DNA from: a virus
Direction: 5' to 3' (one strand)
Length of the DNA stretch: 22,208 bases
IMG/VR virus record: IMGVR_UViG_3300013118_000123
Coordinates: 1 to 22,208 of that record
Shown: piece by piece, positions 2,037 to 20,295 of the stretch
Numbering within the stretch: position 1 is the stretch's first letter
Layout of the letters: every line of letters starts with the position of its first letter
Program-made: the position numbers and the translations under genes
Notes under the pieces: model-generated
Seen by the model: only the letters and a program-made list of their open reading frames with translations
What the model was told of the DNA's origin: nothing
The model's database searches: none

Positions 2037-2294
2037 ATGAATATAGTATCAAGTTTAAATTTTCCGAACACTTACTACATTTTTAGAGAAAACAATGTAG
2101 AAGTAAGAGTATTTGTAAATGGTAGTAAAATATTCAGTAACAAAACTCTTAGAAAGCATGAGCGTGAGTATATAAATAACAATTATATAAAAGGAAGAAA
2201 AACACCTTATGCTATAAGAAAGATCAACACTTTAAATGAAGATCAATTAAAAATAGTTGAGCAACAAATAAGAAAAATAATAAAAGAAAACTAA
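2037..2294 (+). CDS. Hypothetical basic protein, 85 aa
   Basis: An 85-residue basic protein. A beta-rich first half (TYYIFRENNVEVRVFVNGSK) is followed by a helical second half with many Lys, Arg and Asn (NTLNEDQLKIVEQQIRKII). There is no recognised domain and no membrane segment. The layout of a short beta hairpin plus basic helix is compatible with nucleic-acid binding, but that is inference. Its stop TAA overlaps the ATG of the DUF4373 gene by one base, so the two are probably translationally coupled. It may act with the replication initiator. Confidence 0.75.
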   Translation: MNIVSSLNFPNTYYIFRENNVEVRVFVNGSKIFSNKTLRKHEREYINNNYIKGRKTPYAIRKINTLNEDQLKIVEQQIRKIIKEN

Positions 2295-3037
2295 TGGCTA
2301 GACCAATAAAAGATGGATTAAACTACTTTCCTTTAGATGTTGATATTTTCGACGATCCTAAGTTATTATTTATACAGGAGCGTTTCGGTGTCAAAGGCGA
2401 GATAGTAACAATCAAATTACTTTGTTGGATATATAGAAGCGGCTACAAATGTGAATGGAACGATGAACACGCCTTGATATTTGCGAAGAAAAACTTTTCA
2501 TCTATTAAGTCAACACTATGCATCGAGATTGTCAATGAATTGCTTAAACGCGGATTTCTTAACGAGTCCCTTTTTAAGTCGTTCGGAATATTGACAAGTA
2601 GGGCTATTCAACAAAGATGGCTAAACGCTATAACAAAAGCGAAGCGGAAAAGCCAAATAATTCCCGAATTGAATCTATTACTTACGGAAGAAACTACACT
2701 AAAACAGGAATTAACTATTCCAAAACAGGAAGAAAGTACACGAAGTAAAGAGAAGAGAATAGAAATAAACAACATCAAAGATGTTTATGATGGTTTTGTT
2801 AAACAACTTTCAGGTTTAGAGTTCGCTTTGTTCAGAGATACTTTTTACTTAAAACACAAACTTAAAGAAGGGGCTTTGTCTAAAATGCTTCATGAGTTTA
2901 ATAATCACTTAATCCTAATTGAAAAAGAGTATGACGACCTAAAAGACTATAAAAAACATTTTCTGAATTGGGTTAATAGACTAGAATCATTAGGAAATCT
3001 AAAAAAATATAAAAAGAAATCAAAAGGCGCATTATGA
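2294..3037 (+). CDS. DUF4373 (Lin1244/Lin1753-type) replication protein, DnaD/replisome-organiser-like
   Basis: The first about 95 residues match the Lin1244/Lin1753 (DUF4373) N-terminal domain: ARPIKDGLNYFPLDVDIFDD, then KLLFIQERFGVKGEI, then a helical LLCWIYRSGY segment and the EIVNELLKRGFLNESLF helix. In this family the region is a winged-helix-like domain of phage replication proteins. The middle (about 125-155) is charged and probably disordered. A C-terminal helical domain (160-247) ends in a Lys-rich tail. The likely role is origin recognition or primosome loading in phage DNA replication, a DnaD-like function inferred from family and from the downstream ATPase. It overlaps the next gene by 4 bp (ATGA). 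Confidence 0.85.
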   Translation: MARPIKDGLNYFPLDVDIFDDPKLLFIQERFGVKGEIVTIKLLCWIYRSGYKCEWNDEHALIFAKKNFSSIKSTLCIEIVNELLKRGFLNESLFKSFGILTSRAIQQRWLNAITKAKRKSQIIPELNLLLTEETTLKQELTIPKQEESTRSKEKRIEINNIKDVYDGFVKQLSGLEFALFRDTFYLKHKLKEGALSKMLHEFNNHLILIEKEYDDLKDYKKHFLNWVNRLESLGNLKKYKKKSKGAL

Positions 3038-3531
3038 AAGTAGACGAAGCAATTCAGCGCATAATATGGCGCACAGACAAAGGAGGGTGGAAGGCTAACG
3101 AGAACGACGAGGAAGCTATTAATTCAATAATTGATTTTGTAAATGAATCTAGGAAATCTTTAGTAATACAGAATGATTGTTTTGCTAGATTATTTGTAGA
3201 AGTAATGCGAAGAACTGTAAAGGTTCAAGGCGTAAAAGTTACTGATAAAAACGCTACAAGATGGATAGCTGAAGCAATGGAGATTCCATTTAATCAGCAT
3301 GTTGAGCTATTCACTAAAGAGCTTAATGAACAATCTTTATTTGAAAAATTAGAAAAGAAAGGTGTAGAGTTTAAGCACCCGATATTTAAAACAGATGTTC
3401 AAAAAAGAACTGAGGTTGAAAGTGTTTATGAAAACTATGTAGAAGTTTTAAAAGATGAATGGGATTTTAAAACAGTAGAGTATTTCTTAACTAGTGCTAT
3501 AACCCACATACTAACAAAATTCAATGATTAA
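3034..3531 (+). CDS. Hypothetical protein between replication genes, 165 aa
   Basis: A 165-residue helical protein with no motif I can name. Notable segments are GGWKANENDEEAINSIIDF, ARLFVEVMRRTVKVQGVKVT and a Trp/Phe-containing C-terminal helix. No Walker A, zinc site or membrane segment is present, so it is unlikely to be an ATPase such as DnaC. It starts inside the DUF4373 gene (ATGA) and overlaps the ATPase gene by 8 bp, so the three are probably produced together. A partner of the helicase or initiator is the most economical guess, but nothing in the sequence proves it. Confidence 0.75.
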   Translation: MKVDEAIQRIIWRTDKGGWKANENDEEAINSIIDFVNESRKSLVIQNDCFARLFVEVMRRTVKVQGVKVTDKNATRWIAEAMEIPFNQHVELFTKELNEQSLFEKLEKKGVEFKHPIFKTDVQKRTEVESVYENYVEVLKDEWDFKTVEYFLTSAITHILTKFND

Positions 3532-4357
3532 TAACGTAAAAATAAAAAAGAAGACTGATAAAGATTTTGAAGTAGATTTTCAAAAAATCCATGACAAGAG
3601 ATTAGTTAGTCTTGAAGAAGTCATAGAACGTGAGCCTGTAGCGCTAAGTATTGGAACTTATCAATACAAAGGTAAAACATATCCTATACCTTTCGGCACT
3701 TATGGAAATTTTAGTTGTCTTGTTGGTGCTTCAAAATCTATGAAAACTTTTTTAAAATCCGCATTAGTTGCTGGATACATTGGAGGTCAAGCGCAACAAT
3801 ATTTTCCAAACATGAGAGGACACGACATAAAAGATAAATATATACTAGATATTGATACAGAGCAAAGTCTTTTCCATACACAAAAAGTAGCTAGAAGATC
3901 ATGTGAAATGGTAGGTGCGAACTATGATTTATACAAACCTTTTTCATTAAGAGAAGAAGACCCAATAATACGATTTCAATTTATAGAATGGCTATTTATG
4001 GAAAGTGAATACAGGAATAATATCGGGTTAGCGGCAGTAGATGGAGCAGCGGATATTTTGAGTAGTGTAAACGATTTGGATTTATCTAATAAAATAGTAC
4101 AAGGCATGATGAAGTGGACTTCAAAATCAGGAGGGCATTTATGTACAGTATTGCATAGGAATCATGGAAGTGACAAGCCTACAGGACACTTAGGAAGTGC
4201 AATTTTAAAGAAGGCTGAAACAGTAGCGTTTGTAACTAAAGAAGATGAAAACGTAGTTGTAACACCTGAATACACAAGAGGTTATCCTTTTCAGGAATTT
4301 AAATTTACACTAGATGAAAACTTTTTACCAAAAGAAGTTAATGAATACAGTTTCTAA
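3524..4357 (+). CDS. RepA/AAA_25-type RecA-fold ATPase, probable replicative helicase or loader
   Basis: A 277-residue RecA-like ATPase. The Walker A is the variant GASKSMKT (residues 68-75) in CLVGASKSMKTFLKSAL. A strand with ILDIDTEQS (108-115) matches the DTEQ segment typical of RepA-like hexameric helicases. The Walker B strand is IGLAAVDGAADIL (167-179, Asp173). The later HLCTVLHRNHG (205-215) fits the sensor strand, and FVTKEDENVVVTPEYTRG resembles the end of the RecA core. Residues 1-60 form a small N-terminal extension. It probably hydrolyses ATP to unwind DNA, or loads the host helicase, at the phage origin together with the DUF4373 protein. The Gly usually before Lys in Walker A is Met here, as in several RepA relatives. 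Confidence 0.85.
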   Translation: MINNVKIKKKTDKDFEVDFQKIHDKRLVSLEEVIEREPVALSIGTYQYKGKTYPIPFGTYGNFSCLVGASKSMKTFLKSALVAGYIGGQAQQYFPNMRGHDIKDKYILDIDTEQSLFHTQKVARRSCEMVGANYDLYKPFSLREEDPIIRFQFIEWLFMESEYRNNIGLAAVDGAADILSSVNDLDLSNKIVQGMMKWTSKSGGHLCTVLHRNHGSDKPTGHLGSAILKKAETVAFVTKEDENVVVTPEYTRGYPFQEFKFTLDENFLPKEVNEYSF

Positions 4358-4756: not shown

Positions 4757-5380
4757 ATGAAGATACTAATAGGTTGCGCAGGATTAGGCGGTGAGTCTGA
4801 AAAATGGAACGACATAGAGAATGAAATTACTCATGTTGAGATTGATCCTAAAATAGCTGCTGTTTTACAAAAACGAAAACCGAATCGAAAAGTAGTTGTT
4901 GGTGATGCTTATAATTTCCTGTTAGAAAATTTTCAAGATTATGATTTTATTTGGTTTTCTCCAATATGCCAACCAAATAGTAAAATGATCCGAGGAGGAA
5001 GAAACAGAAAGCCAAGGTTTCCAGACTTAACGCTTTATGAAGTTAAAATATTCCTTGATTTCAATTATAACGGTAAGTATTGTATTGAAAATGTAGTGCC
5101 GTATTATGAAACGCCTATACCTCCAACTGCTAAAATAGGGAGGCATCTATTTTGGGCAAACTTTAAAATTGAAGATTTTCATATTGAGCAGCCTAAAAAC
5201 TTTATAAAAACAGGGACTGTATCAGGTTCTGAAGAATTGAAAAAATGGCTTGGAATATACTATCCTGGTAATCTGTATTACAACGGAAATCATGATCCAT
5301 GTCAAGTACTTAGAAATTGTGTTCATCCTGATTTGGGATTACACATATTTAACAACTTAATAAAATCAATTAAACAGTAA
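4757..5380 (+). CDS. Miniature C5-cytosine DNA methyltransferase
   Basis: A 207-residue protein with the ordered motifs of C5-cytosine methyltransferases: motif I CAGLGG (residues 7-12, SAM binding), motif II VEIDP (27-31), motif III GDA (49-51), motif IV SPICQ with the probable catalytic Cys71, motif VI ENV (111-113), and a C-terminal QVLRNCVHPDLGLHIFNNLI that fits motifs IX-X. The GRNRKPRF segment after motif IV may supply motif VIII-like basic contacts. It would transfer a methyl group from SAM to cytosine C5, possibly to protect phage DNA from host restriction. It is far shorter than typical members (over 320 aa), leaving little room for a target-recognition domain, and the Pro normally just before the catalytic Cys is Ile. 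No cognate endonuclease is adjacent. Confidence 0.88.
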   Translation: MKILIGCAGLGGESEKWNDIENEITHVEIDPKIAAVLQKRKPNRKVVVGDAYNFLLENFQDYDFIWFSPICQPNSKMIRGGRNRKPRFPDLTLYEVKIFLDFNYNGKYCIENVVPYYETPIPPTAKIGRHLFWANFKIEDFHIEQPKNFIKTGTVSGSEELKKWLGIYYPGNLYYNGNHDPCQVLRNCVHPDLGLHIFNNLIKSIKQ

Positions 5381-5396
5381 TTAAAACAACAACAAT

Positions 5397-5621
5397 ATGC
5401 CAACAATTAGAATACGCGCAAAAGAATATGTCATTTACGATCAAGAAGTAGAAGTGACAGCCGAGGAACTAAAAATATTGAATAATCGTCCTTTCAATGA
5501 TGTCAATGAGTTACAGCATCAAGAAGAATATTTCTTATTAGAAAAACTAATAAATAGAACTGAGATTCTTGATACTGGTGATGAATTTGAGATAACAGAA
5601 ATAGAAGAAATAACAAAATAA
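5397..5621 (+). CDS. Acidic hypothetical protein, 74 aa
   Basis: A 74-residue acidic protein, PTIRIRAKEYVIYDQEVEVTAEEL at the start and DTGDEFEITEIEEITK at the end, with predicted beta strands flanking a helix. No domain is recognised. Its Glu-rich surface could mimic DNA, as many small phage inhibitors do, but this is speculation. It is the last gene of the early block and a terminator follows within 25 bp. Confidence 0.65.
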   Translation: MPTIRIRAKEYVIYDQEVEVTAEELKILNNRPFNDVNELQHQEEYFLLEKLINRTEILDTGDEFEITEIEEITK

Positions 5622-5640
5622 TTGTAGTTAAATAAACGCT

Positions 5641-5692
5641 AAAAACACTATAGATATTTGGATAATATTTTGTATATTTATAGTGTCTTTTT
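5641..5692 (+). terminator. Probable intrinsic terminator closing the early block
   Basis: ACACTATA (5645-5652) and TATAGTGT (5679-5686) form an 8-bp stem with a 26-nt AT-rich loop, preceded by AAAA and followed by CTTTTT (5687-5692). The A and T tracts extend the pairing. It sits 20 bp after the last early stop codon, where a terminator would be expected. The long loop and AT-rich stem make it weaker than a textbook example. The A tract before the stem may let it act in both directions. Confidence 0.6.
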
Positions 5693-5993
5693 CTGTTATG
5701 ATTACGAAAGGTAATTATTAACATAAGAAGACTTTTGTTTTTTCTGAACGTATCACATCTACGATGCAAAAGTAAAACAGAATCTTCTCGAAATTTAAAA
5801 CATAATGATAAAAGATCGGTATTATCAGATTTAAACACTCAACACATAGAGAGTATAACACAACGTAGTTAGATTATTGAAGGGAAAAGGTTGTATTCTC
5901 TTTTGTGTTGTTTTAAAATATAGATTATTAATGAAATTAAAATATTAATAATAACGGCTAAATGTAAAAAGCGTTTTATTAACGTGTAGAGAT
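5693..5993 (+). promoter_or_regulatory. Gene-free, inverted-repeat-rich early/late junction; candidate structured leader or ncRNA
   Basis: No convincing gene is seen on either strand. After the terminator come four further inverted-repeat blocks: (a) 5726-5788, with AGAAG/CTTCT outside, ACTTTTG/CAAAAGT (5731-5737/5767-5773) inside and CGTA/TACG at the tip; (b) TGATAA/TTATCA (5806-5811/5822-5827); (c) 5848-5909, where two stems interleave (5848-5856 with 5893-5901; AACACAA 5857-5863 with TTGTGTT 5903-5909, then GTTTT); (d) a perfect 9-bp inverted repeat ATTATTAAT/ATTAATAAT (5924-5932/5944-5952). This is where late transcription should begin. I could not find a convincing Bacteroidetes TAnnTTTG promoter element, so any promoter here is inferred from position. 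Confidence 0.5.
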
Positions 5994-6020
5994 ATGAATA
6001 GTAAAAATTACGACCTATGA
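5994..6020 (+). CDS. Possible 8-aa leader peptide coupled to the next gene
   Basis: ATG 5994 opens an eight-codon ORF (MNSKNYDL) whose TGA stop (6018-6020) overlaps the ATG (6017) of the next gene in the ATGA arrangement seen at many junctions here. It follows directly after the structured intergenic region. A translated leader could couple ribosome entry to the first late gene. An ORF this short can easily occur by chance. Confidence 0.3.
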   Translation: MNSKNYDL

Positions 6021-6235
6021 AACCATTAAAAGTATTAACAGAAGGCGAAATGATAGATTACCAAACTGTTATAGAAGAAACTATAGGAGATTGGATAAGC
6101 GGCTTAAAATGCTATGATGCTAATTTTGAAAGAAAAAGCCAAATAAATGGTGAAGATATTGAAAGGGATAGAGCATACTTTGTGCCTGATGCAGATTATG
6201 AACTTATCATTAGAAAAAAGCGAAAACGTAAGTAA
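6017..6235 (+). CDS. Hypothetical protein, 72 aa, first gene of the late block
   Basis: A 72-residue protein: MKPLKVLTEGEMIDYQTVIE, then a Trp-containing segment (ETIGDWISGLKCYD), an acidic middle and a strongly basic tail (IIRKKRKRK). No domain is recognised. The ATG forms an ATGA overlap with the short upstream leader ORF. The basic tail may contact nucleic acid. As the first gene after the intergenic region it could be regulatory, but this is position-based inference. Confidence 0.6.
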   Translation: MKPLKVLTEGEMIDYQTVIEETIGDWISGLKCYDANFERKSQINGEDIERDRAYFVPDADYELIIRKKRKRK

Positions 6236-6281
6236 TTTTTATTATTTATATTTCACGTTGTGCGCTTTTAAAATTACGATT

Positions 6282-6398
6282 ATGAAAGTACAAGCAGAAG
6301 ACGAAAAGAAAGCAATTAAAGCAGCAGAAAGCTTCTTATATAAAGTAGTACAAGGATTAATGATAGTAGTAGCTAATTTACAGATTTACAGAGAATGA
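6282..6398 (+). CDS. Small hypothetical protein, 38 aa
   Basis: From ATG 6282 the product is a 38-residue peptide, MKVQAEDEKKAIKAAESF followed by LYKVVQGLMIVVANLQIYRE, i.e. a charged amphipathic helix then a hydrophobic segment. The frame is open back to 6147, but that would run through the preceding gene, so 6282 is the sensible start. The hydrophobic stretch (about 14 residues) is too short for a confident transmembrane call. No family is recognised. Confidence 0.5.
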   Translation: MKVQAEDEKKAIKAAESFLYKVVQGLMIVVANLQIYRE

Positions 6399-6413
6399 AA
6401 ACAAGTATCATAA

Positions 6414-6635
6414 ATGAAGCAGTATTTTAAACATATATTAAGCCTTATAACATCACCTAAGATAAAATCATATAGACAATACCTATATGAAAACGGTGAC
6501 TATATACAAATGCTGTATTTTTATCATACAGCATCAGTACATACTTTAGAATTTATATCATTAAGAAGATATATAATATATTTAAAACTTATTAACTACA
6601 CATATGGGGAAAAACAAATACATAGAAACACCTGA
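6414..6635 (+). CDS. Hypothetical protein, 73 aa, rich in Tyr and Ile
   Basis: A 73-residue ORF with many aromatic residues (YRQYLYENGDYIQMLYFYH) and a basic start. No family is known. It begins 15 bp after the previous stop and overlaps the start of the small terminase gene by 32 bp. Such an overlap is longer than is usual here, so either the last part is fortuitous or the two genes are coupled. It could be real but is among the weaker calls. Confidence 0.4.
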   Translation: MKQYFKHILSLITSPKIKSYRQYLYENGDYIQMLYFYHTASVHTLEFISLRRYIIYLKLINYTYGEKQIHRNT

Positions 6636-7086
6636 AAAAATGTGGGAGCTATTCTGTAACTACAGAAAGGAGACAAAAGAAAATCCCATATACAAGGCGG
6701 AACAAAAAAGAGGAAGCACAATTCTACCAAAAGACCTTTCTAATGTTTCACAAGAAACGCTAAACCAGTCTTTAAACTCTATAGTGCAAATACCAACACC
6801 TAGACCCCTGACATTAGAAGGGTTTGAAAACTATGTAGCTGATCAAGAAGTTTGCCTTTCTGTAGATCAATATTTTAGTAACCAAGATGGCTTGTATGAT
6901 GAATATATGGGTATCTGTTCACGTATACGAAAAGTTATAAGACAAGATCAGATCGAGGGAGGAATGGCAGGAGTTTACAACCCAAGCATTACACAGCGTC
7001 TTAATGGATTAACAGACAAAAAAGAAACAACATTAAAAGGATCAATAAACGTTCCTAATTTACCAGACATAGGAGATCGAAAATAA
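6604..7086 (+). CDS. terS: Terminase small subunit
   Basis: A 160-residue protein with the features of small terminase/DNA-packaging proteins in this phage type: RPLTLEGFENYVADQEV, then SVDQYFSNQDGLYDEYMGICSRIRKVIRQDQIEGGMAGVYNPSITQRLNGL in sequence (about residues 64-139). Together these form the helical DNA-binding region and oligomerisation core. The C-terminal tail (DKKETTLKGS onward) probably contacts the large subunit. Its role is to recognise the packaging site and start headful or cohesive-end packaging with TerL, which follows directly. The TerL reading frame is already open inside the last codons of this gene. Confidence 0.85.
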   Translation: MGKNKYIETPEKMWELFCNYRKETKENPIYKAEQKRGSTILPKDLSNVSQETLNQSLNSIVQIPTPRPLTLEGFENYVADQEVCLSVDQYFSNQDGLYDEYMGICSRIRKVIRQDQIEGGMAGVYNPSITQRLNGLTDKKETTLKGSINVPNLPDIGDRK

Positions 7087-7123
7087 ATTTAAATACACAA
7101 AGGCGTATTTCAAGATTAAAGAC

Positions 7124-8299
7124 TTGATTATGAATAACCCAAATGAAAATGTGTTCATTGTAAAAGGGGGGCAAGGTGCGTCGAAAACTATTTCTATAAT
7201 TGAATTAATTATACAATCTTTACTTAGTTCTGAAAAAGAAGCTTCAATACTTTCTTCAGAGTTATCAAAAATGAAACGCACAGTAATTCGAGACTATAAA
7301 AAAGTTGCTAAAGATTGGGGAGTGATGCGAGATGAAAAAGACTTCAATCGATCAGAAAGTAAGCATGAGTATTCTAACGGAAGTTATTTAGATTTTCTTG
7401 GAGCAGATGTCACAGATTTAGGAAAAGGCTTTAGACGTGATATTTTATATATAAACGAAGCAGATAGGATGGATATTGATACTGCTGTGCAATTCATTTC
7501 AAGAGCAAAACTTACTATCATTGATTACAACCCTGATTCTTTATTTTGGGGTGATGACTACATAAATAAAAATAACACATTAACATTAACCTACTTAGAT
7601 AATGAATACTTAGATGAAAGCGAAAAAAGGTCTATACTTGATTACAAGGTGAAAGGTTTTTATAAATCAGATTTACCATTTAAATTATTATTTGATGAAA
7701 GCAATATTAAAAATTCATATTGGGCTAATAAGTGGCGAGTTTATGGATTAGGGCTTGTAGGTCAATTAGAAGGTGTTGTGTTTAGTAATTGGAAGATTGT
7801 AGACAATATACCAAACGACGCAAAAAAGATAGGTAGAGGCGGTGATTTTGGTTACACCAATGATCCGACAGCAATAACAGATATTTATAAATATAACAAC
7901 GTTAGAATATTAGATGAATTATGCTATCGAAAAGCAATGAGTAATAAGCAAATAGCTAAAGTTATTCCTGATAAATTACCAAGTTACTTTGATAGTGCAG
8001 AGCCTAAAAGTATTGACGAAATAAAAACTTATGGAGTGCGAGCTATTGGAGCAGAAAAAGGAAAAGATAGCATTGTTTACGGAATAGGAATAATGCAAGA
8101 GCAGGAGTATTGGATAACAAGAAGGTCAAAAAATGTTATAAATGAATTTAAAAAATATACTTGGAAAGTAGATAAAAGAACAAATCAAACGCTAAATGTG
8201 CCTATAGATGAATATAATCATGCAATAGATGGTGTAAGATATCATGAAATGGAAACATTGAAGCCTAAAAAACGTAGAAGTGTAAGAATAAGGGTCTAA
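7124..8299 (+). CDS. terL: Terminase large subunit (ATPase-nuclease)
   Basis: Numbering from TTG 7124, the ATPase part has Walker A GGQGASKT (15-22), Walker B ILYINEAD (107-114) and a coupling-type TIIDYNP (131-137). The nuclease part has acidic residues in GGDFGYTNDPTA (Asp241), YFDSAEP (Asp290) and NHAIDGVRY (His366, Asp369). It pumps DNA into the prohead and cuts it. At 391 aa it is slightly short, mainly at the N-terminus. The first ATG is 7130, yet the frame is open back to 7073 and the codons there spell a protein-like NKFKYTKAYFKIKDLI, a style seen at the start of related terminases. The true start may therefore lie upstream, perhaps at ATC 7076. It ends TAATG with the next gene. Confidence 0.93.
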   Translation: MIMNNPNENVFIVKGGQGASKTISIIELIIQSLLSSEKEASILSSELSKMKRTVIRDYKKVAKDWGVMRDEKDFNRSESKHEYSNGSYLDFLGADVTDLGKGFRRDILYINEADRMDIDTAVQFISRAKLTIIDYNPDSLFWGDDYINKNNTLTLTYLDNEYLDESEKRSILDYKVKGFYKSDLPFKLLFDESNIKNSYWANKWRVYGLGLVGQLEGVVFSNWKIVDNIPNDAKKIGRGGDFGYTNDPTAITDIYKYNNVRILDELCYRKAMSNKQIAKVIPDKLPSYFDSAEPKSIDEIKTYGVRAIGAEKGKDSIVYGIGIMQEQEYWITRRSKNVINEFKKYTWKVDKRTNQTLNVPIDEYNHAIDGVRYHEMETLKPKKRRSVRIRV

Positions 8300-19707: not shown

Positions 19708-20295
19708 ATGATATGTGATGGTGGATTAATTAACGCAGATATGTTGTACGACTGTCTTAATGCTCCTATTGGAGGTATTGAGACGAATGTACTTCTATTT
19801 AATATAGATGATATTGACTATACAGCAATAACTAGGGACGCTTCTAACGAAGATATCGTAACAAACTTTGCTTTAAAAACTGGCAAAACAGGTTATTTAC
19901 TGCAAGGAGTAAAACAAGTAAATAACGGAGCTTCTGAATTAGTTAAAAAAGAATTCTCTAGCGATAAAAGAAAGCATTCTTTTAACGGGGTGGCTTTCAA
20001 TGTTAGTGCAGCTGTAAAAAACCAAATGAACCGAATGGCAAAAGGCGGAAAATTTGCTGTTATGGTAGAAAGAAAATGGAAGGGACTTAACAACACAGAA
20101 GCTTTCTTAATTTATGGTTTAGATTCTGGTTTAGAATTAGAAACAGAAGTACATAACACTAACGAAAACGATGGTGTGTTGCAATTTACTTTAGCTAGTG
20201 CAGATGGATACGAAGAAAGATATTTACCAAGCACAGTATTGGAAACAGATTACGCAACAACTAAAACAGCATTCGATGCAAAATTCGCAGCTTAA
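19708..20295 (+). CDS. Probable tail tube (major tail) protein, 195 aa
   Basis: A 195-residue beta-rich protein. Segments TGKTGYLLQGVKQVNNGASE, HSFNGVAFNVSAAVKNQMNR, GGKFAVMVERKWKG and TEAFLIYGLDSGLELETEVH, then GVLQFTLASADGYEERYLPS, are laid out as in tail-tube proteins, with a terminal extension (TVLETDYATTKTAF). I judge it a tail tube or related virion protein; a capsid-decoration protein is the alternative because it directly follows the capsid gene. It overlaps the next gene by 20 bp. Confidence 0.6.
   Translation: MICDGGLINADMLYDCLNAPIGGIETNVLLFNIDDIDYTAITRDASNEDIVTNFALKTGKTGYLLQGVKQVNNGASELVKKEFSSDKRKHSFNGVAFNVSAAVKNQMNRMAKGGKFAVMVERKWKGLNNTEAFLIYGLDSGLELETEVHNTNENDGVLQFTLASADGYEERYLPSTVLETDYATTKTAFDAKFAA

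Follow-up and report, generated by a model that had tools for sequence, protein, structure and literature searches.

Gene order around the gap

The window, i.e. the whole stretch of 22,208 bases analysed here, comes from a virus record, and its main open reading frames (ORFs) all lie on the + strand. The genes on both sides of its largest gap are as follows:

2294-3037, + strand: replisome organizer (PHROGs match), upstream of the gap
3524-4357, + strand: gene upstream of the gap, an ATPase as judged by eye, for which no protein family was matched
4757-5380, + strand: methyltransferase-like gene, upstream of the gap
5397-5621, + strand: orphan ORF of 74 aa, the last ahead of the gap
6017-6235, + strand: orphan ORF of 72 aa, the first past the gap, followed by small ORFs and then TerS
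6604-7086, + strand: terminase small subunit, TerS (phrog_606, E = 1.4e-15)
7124-8299, + strand: terminase large subunit, TerL (phrog_5653, E = 2.7e-30)

The gap covers positions 5622-6016 (395 bp, measured between main ORFs) and is indeed, as an earlier note on this DNA had it, the only one over 300 bp in the window. That note had also placed the gap at the junction of early and late genes, and the replisome organizer and methyltransferase found upstream, together with TerS and TerL downstream, support this placement.

Relatives of TerL were found in 82 stretches of IMG/VR, 80 loci being kept, and the closest of them (L002) shows 84% identity. Relatives of the 3524-4357 gene are present at 30 loci, and the two ORFs flanking the gap (5397-5621 and 6017-6235) have no relatives in IMG/VR. 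The virus is most likely a tailed phage of Bacteroidota, because the best relatives of its TerL among named phages belong to Flavobacterium phages (36.5% identity).

Some smaller frames overlap the gap. The minus-strand ORF 5503-5838 was taken as a chance frame, and no claim was kept for the short ORFs at 5698 and 5806, considered as leader peptides, or for a 45-codon ORF at 5735-5869 (no Pfam match). Just past the gap, the window (6255-6283) and Tenacibaculum phage Gundel_1 (L135, 32947-33081) have in common GTTGT(G/A)CGCTTTTAAAATTACGA..TATG ahead of a small ORF; the comparison of window 5952-6283 with the same phage also brought out AAAATTACGACCTATG ahead of ORF 6017.

Folded elements and a promoter-like box in the gap

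Positions 5641-5952, taken together, are structured beyond chance. On the + strand, they have a minimum free energy (MFE) of -67.7, compared with -48.6 +/- 3.8 in shuffled sequences (z = -4.97; none of 100 shuffles as good), and a new estimate with 40 shuffles gave z = -3.7; the minus strand reaches z = -3.01. Among 142 segments of 312 nt, this is one of the three strongest-folding loci, the others lying at about 6397 and about 20125-20281, so that the region is outstanding in the window and not unique. Positions 6397-6708 and 20125-20592 fold about equally strongly relative to shuffles (z of about -4.1 to -4.8). We distinguished the following elements, each fold being compared with 200 shuffles:

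5641-5692, + strand: hairpin T1, pairing 5645-5685 (13 bp and an inner 4 bp), flanked by A5 on its 5' side and TCTTTTT on its 3' side
5658-5680, + strand: promoter-like sequence P, TTG-N12-TATATTTA, within the T1 hairpin, with its box TATATTTA at 5673-5680
5685-5732, + strand: hairpin T2, starting at the predicted +1 and followed by the T-run TTTTGTTTTTT at 5733-5743
5726-5788, + strand: three-tier stem H3 (5722-5794: MFE -17.7, z = -3.3, 1 of 200 shuffles as good)
5806-5811 and 5822-5827, + strand: TGATAA and TTATCA (5795-5832: z = -0.3, 70 of 200 shuffles as good)
5840-5911, + strand: long imperfect hairpin H5, with T4 after, to 5917 (5836-5920: MFE -22.3, z = -3.9, 0 of 200 shuffles as good)
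5924-5932 and 5944-5952, + strand: 9-bp inverted repeat ATTATTAAT and ATTAATAAT (5920-5956: z = -1.8, 13 of 200 shuffles as good)

The earlier note had described five blocks of inverted repeats here, and all of them are present. The comparison with shuffled sequences that it proposed comes out in favour of the region as a whole, though two of the blocks are weak: the repeat at 5924-5952 exceeds its shuffles only weakly, and the pair at 5806-5827 is chance-like and stands outside the mechanism proposed below. T2 had not been noticed.

T1 begins 24 nt past the stop of ORF 5397-5621. The repeats ACACTATA (5645-5652) and TATAGTGT (5679-5686) lie here, and the hairpin folds well (5639-5692: MFE -13.6, z = -4.2, 0 of 200 shuffles as good). 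T1 is likely the terminator of the upstream operon, and it is possibly bidirectional.

T2 is the strongest short element of the stretch (5685-5745: MFE -18.0 kcal/mol, z = -5.0, 0 of 200 shuffles as good). An outer stem of eight pairs, one interruption and an inner stem are directly followed by TTTTGTTTTTT, which is the layout of an intrinsic terminator, i.e. a stable hairpin with a T-run directly 3' of it. None of 600 shuffles of the site yielded an equally stable hairpin abutting the box. T2 is therefore a likely promoter-proximal intrinsic terminator, with a predicted product of about 58 nt; its strength is unsure because G-C pairs are few and the stem is interrupted, and a simple consensus terminator scan of 5300-6700 listed no terminator. 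The 5' arm of H3 consists of the 3' arm of T2 together with the T-run, so that the two structures are mutually exclusive, and H3 is likely the fold of a read-through RNA. Further on, H5 is read as a leader structure and is possibly a second, weak terminator. A loop complement, CUACG (about 5757) with CGUAG (about 5865), was considered and dropped, being likely due to chance by our estimate.

The box of P resembles a promoter element of Bacteroidota. PMC6847099 gives the -7 element of Flavobacterium johnsoniae as TAHHTTTG, where the T lies at -12 and the G, at -5, is nearly invariant. The box TATATTTA agrees with it at all positions but the last, with an A in place of the nearly invariant G, which is a serious weak point; the boxes of the two closest relatives (see below) deviate from TAHHTTTG as well. 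With the T of the box numbered -12, the predicted +1 falls on G5685, where the pairing of T2 begins. The TTTG of P sits at N12, not at about -33; according to PMC7366714, a -33 motif was not found in F. johnsoniae either. No further TAnnTTTG occurs in the non-coding + strand DNA from the gap to TerL, and a sigma-70 scan, of a kind not built for Bacteroidota, listed fewer sites than in its shuffles. P is a candidate promoter of the Bacteroidota type, the type that the host would use.

The same layout in relatives and the possible readings of the gap

DNA similar to the gap is scarce. A blastn search of 50,697 phage records at E = 1e-5 gave no homologue of the stretch. When E was relaxed to 10, short pieces appeared in 34 records, the best among the matches listed (20 of 34) being 37 nt at 5600-5636, upstream of the stretch (E = 8e-4). 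The records of 20 relatives contained short chance pieces only, as did the 80 terminase loci (TerL up to 84% identical) when searched with 5640-5952, and no homologue was found in 395 Bacteroidota genomes. Rfam gave no match above the gathering score in the window (one chance hit, E = 1.3). Elsewhere, at the start of TerS (6594-6671), the DNA is 82-92% identical over 39-73 nt to otherwise far more distant relatives, reflecting either coding constraint or a packaging-related site.

The layout itself recurs in the two loci that are closest by the 3524-4357 gene (L002, 87%, and L098, 81%). Both have TTG-N12-TATATT, a hairpin beginning 11-12 nt past the T of this box, and finally a T-run, these modules of promoter, hairpin and T-run lying at 3215-3310 (L002) and 7525-7620 (L098). 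In both, the module stands past the relative of the 3524-4357 gene and one more ORF, a junction equivalent to that of the window. In each, the hairpin forms a single long stem (-23 to -30 kcal/mol), alike in the two but different in sequence from that of the window, and unlike the window they have no T1 around the box. Compared by eye, the two stems differ by one pair changed on both sides and few one-sided changes; a pair of sequences does not allow a statistic. A search of IMG/VR for their hairpin pattern returned those two contigs only. L002 also has a 75-aa ORF (2974-3201; no family match) with a basic leader, GG and a Cys-rich C-terminal part, which looks by eye like the precursor of a peptide natural product, and L098 has a match to the DUF805b RNA (RF02914, 39.1 bits) at 6913-6948, just ahead of ORF 6970-7512.

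We then counted strict boxes (T[TC]GTATATT) in the window and in every fetched locus except L001 and L107, no sites being dropped for lying in ORFs. Four out of 106 distinct boxes have an abutting terminator, compared with 0.15 expected per shuffled pass: those of the window, L002, L098 and L083 (minus strand, 5665). The spacing seen most often puts TTG at N12 (9 of the 106, the next having 5). The loose box TAnnTT shows only a small excess (47 of 14,430 with an abutting terminator vs. 27 in one shuffle each), and the result therefore rests on the strict box. Another box scan excluded sites inside ORFs of at least 50 aa and thereby lost the box of the window to the minus-strand ORF 5503-5838. 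The box also stands ahead of terminase-side or later genes in L007, L013, L021, L027 and L099, which supports a role of the box of the window as a late promoter. In L007, L021, L027 and L099 it has no attenuator, so that attenuation is not universal. Two other features were seen in the relatives. In L056 (6990-7160), a box TTGTATATTTG precedes about 150 nt of structured sequence with T8 at its end, and there is no ORF for more than 400 nt; it looks like a small RNA gene and has no Rfam match. In L039 (205-409, 1375-1542 and 1894-2022), long imperfect palindromes with ATAACG..GTTAT ends lie between small ORFs (z = -5.7, -3.9 and -3.7, respectively); these resemble integron attC sites, here in a phage contig.

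The reading that we prefer, with about an even chance of being right, is that the gap combines an operon terminator, an attenuated late promoter and a structured leader at the junction between the replication genes and those for packaging and structure. T1 (5641-5692) would end the upstream operon, and the host-type promoter inside it (5658-5680) would start an RNA at about G5685. Starting at its very first base, the nascent RNA would form T2 (5685-5732) and then reach the T-run at 5733-5743, so that the default product would be a released RNA of about 58 nt only. The late genes (6017 onward) would be made once RNA polymerase passes T2, through an antiterminator, and the read-through RNA could refold, with H3 in place of T2, and would also carry H5. 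The hairpins beyond chance, the box, its spacing and the layout common to two relatives are computed from the sequence; use of the box, termination at T2, regulated read-through and the service of P to the late genes are what we infer from them. In favour of this reading, the gap has replication genes on one side and terminase genes on the other, and all of them run in the same direction. No antiterminator gene was recognised among the ORFs around the gap.

The nearest rival, ahead of a free-standing small RNA, is a plain pair of tandem terminators: T1 and T2 would both end the upstream operon, the box would be due to chance, and the late genes would be read from elsewhere or by read-through. 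T1 and T2 do fold well, the box is imperfect, and such boxes arise easily in a region of 24% G+C. However, the box lies exactly 12 nt ahead of the first pair of T2, an arrangement repeated in L002 and L098; abutting terminators exceed the shuffled expectation for the strict box as given above, and the late side has no other promoter-like box. We thus consider tandem terminators unlikely, if still worth weighing.

A small RNA gene is less probable again. Here, a stable RNA of 58 nt (or about 230 nt, to H5) would act in trans and the late genes would be independent of it. Pairing that starts at the very 5' end should make such an RNA stable. A promoter followed by an intrinsic terminator is also the usual anatomy of intergenic small RNAs, as described in PMC7366714. 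Against this, the sequence of the hairpin differs between the window and L002/L098, whereas a trans-acting RNA would suggest conservation, and the place ahead of the late block suits a leader.

A DNA element, either a packaging site (cos/pac) or a replication origin as the earlier note had also proposed, is very improbable. The gap is A+T-rich, has palindromes and lies 650-960 bp upstream of TerS, but it folds better on the strand that is transcribed. Similar DNA is missing from terminase relatives of up to 84% identity, in which the conserved block is that at the TerS start; no direct-repeat families (iterons) occur in 5600-6020; and the sequence is absent from L002, where the replication-block gene is 87% identical. 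The remaining proposal of that note, a regulatory or structured RNA, is the one favoured by the fold, by a box with its +1 at the first base of the terminator hairpin and by the layout of L002 and L098.

Putative leader RNAs of related phages and the late promoter of lambda

The attenuated late promoter proposed for the window can be compared with another element, which we found in related phages. It consists of a Bacteroidota-type box, a first hairpin at about +1 to +4, a terminator hairpin whose loop is complementary to that of the first, and then a gene (replication, Ant, HNH-like or hypothetical). Out of 1,318 strict boxes, 29 are followed by a loop pair of at least 7 nt, compared with 1.4 per shuffled pass; some of the 29 look false (e.g. 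L086, L020 and L135, minus strand, 21162). Members of this group of kissing-hairpin leaders are:

L108, 5099-5213
L064, 774-890 and 1883-1996
L036, 354-463
L045, 1000-1099
L083, 989-1100
L111, 2904-3030
L121, 4098-4218
L011, 8022-8120
L096, from 1548
L133, 4409-4520
Flavobacterium phage 11b (L138), 33621
Olleya phage Harreka_1 (L137), 30070
Tenacibaculum phage Gundel_1 (L135), 16777 and 33891
Flavobacterium phage elemoF 6-3D (L136), 9325-9207, minus strand

Twelve members were aligned without regard to structure, and the register of the loop helix was read off that alignment, in which one member (L064, 774) is shifted out of register and only about half of the members keep the first hairpin in register. 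Eight of the nine pairs of the loop helix show changes on both sides. The covariation score of the three helices together is reached by none of 500 shuffles, and it drops from 0.469 to 0.175 or less when the partner is shifted by 1-3 columns. We also built a covariance model of the two stems only, in which the choice of loop register plays no part, and searched it over 99 and 38 sources. The 32 matches at E up to 0.5 comprise 11 training sequences (one more, L013, was not recovered), 4 copies (L105, L113, L124 and L136) and 17 others. Among these 17, a loop complement of at least 6 nt is found in 14 (1.43 expected) and of at least 7 nt in 13 (0.53 expected); the three without a loop complement are L099, L129 and L137 16720.

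Rfam reported nothing on the members in L011, L045, L096, L036, L082, L083, L111, L116, L121-L128, L130 and L132 (those with a member), 11b, Harreka_1 and elemoF; the scan left out L064, L100, L108, L112, L133 and Gundel_1. The model of the kissing hairpins matched none of 296 Bacteroidota genomes, a search with stricter filters and no positive control, which shows little. Several leaders have a tRNA gene shortly upstream (L125 3538-3611, L111 2583-2657, L116 2257-2332, L128 3503-3580 and L136 9508-9581).

Like these leaders, the window has a box close to the Bacteroidota type, a first hairpin at about +1, a predicted intrinsic terminator and then a gene; unlike it, they have two hairpins with complementary loops. 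No complementary loop pair was found in window 5673-5743, and the hit of the two-stem model, although it spans exactly these positions, falls short of significance, at 15.3 bits and E = 1.4 (third among the 21 listed). The kissing-hairpin leader is probably more novel than the element of the window. Showing strong covariation and absent from Rfam where scanned, it would make up a new class of RNA, and its occurrence in isolated phages (11b, Harreka_1 and Gundel_1) makes the idea directly testable.

Taken together, the two forms suggest a broader scheme, which we put forward as a tentative possibility. Bacteroidota phages may control operons by leader RNAs whose folding begins at about +1 and which close with an intrinsic terminator ahead of the first gene. 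The late promoters of the window, L002 and L098 would have the form with one hairpin, and relatives the two-hairpin, kissing-loop form, placed ahead of replication, Ant and HNH-like genes. From one element to another, the loop pairs vary yet stay complementary, as though every element carried an address of its own. Such addresses, if real, could serve for instance in antitermination or in RNA-based immunity between related phages.

To our knowledge, the early-to-late switch has hardly been studied in Bacteroidota phages, and a search of a partial full-text collection by title and abstract start found no literature on late control or terminator leaders in these phages. In phage lambda, the late promoter pR' is followed by the terminator tR', which yields the 6S RNA, and Q acts as antiterminator. 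The window is not assigned to this system because it has no sequence link with it and no Q-like gene family among the ORFs around the gap, where an unknown protein could serve. The type of promoter is also different, and the predicted terminator hairpin starts at +1, whereas the distance in lambda is about 190 nt. The likeness lies in the arrangement: in the window, as at pR'-tR', a predicted promoter would stand at the early/late junction with a terminator before the first late gene, giving a short RNA by default and the late genes upon read-through. A promoter fused to a terminator at +1 would make this a concrete and testable switch.
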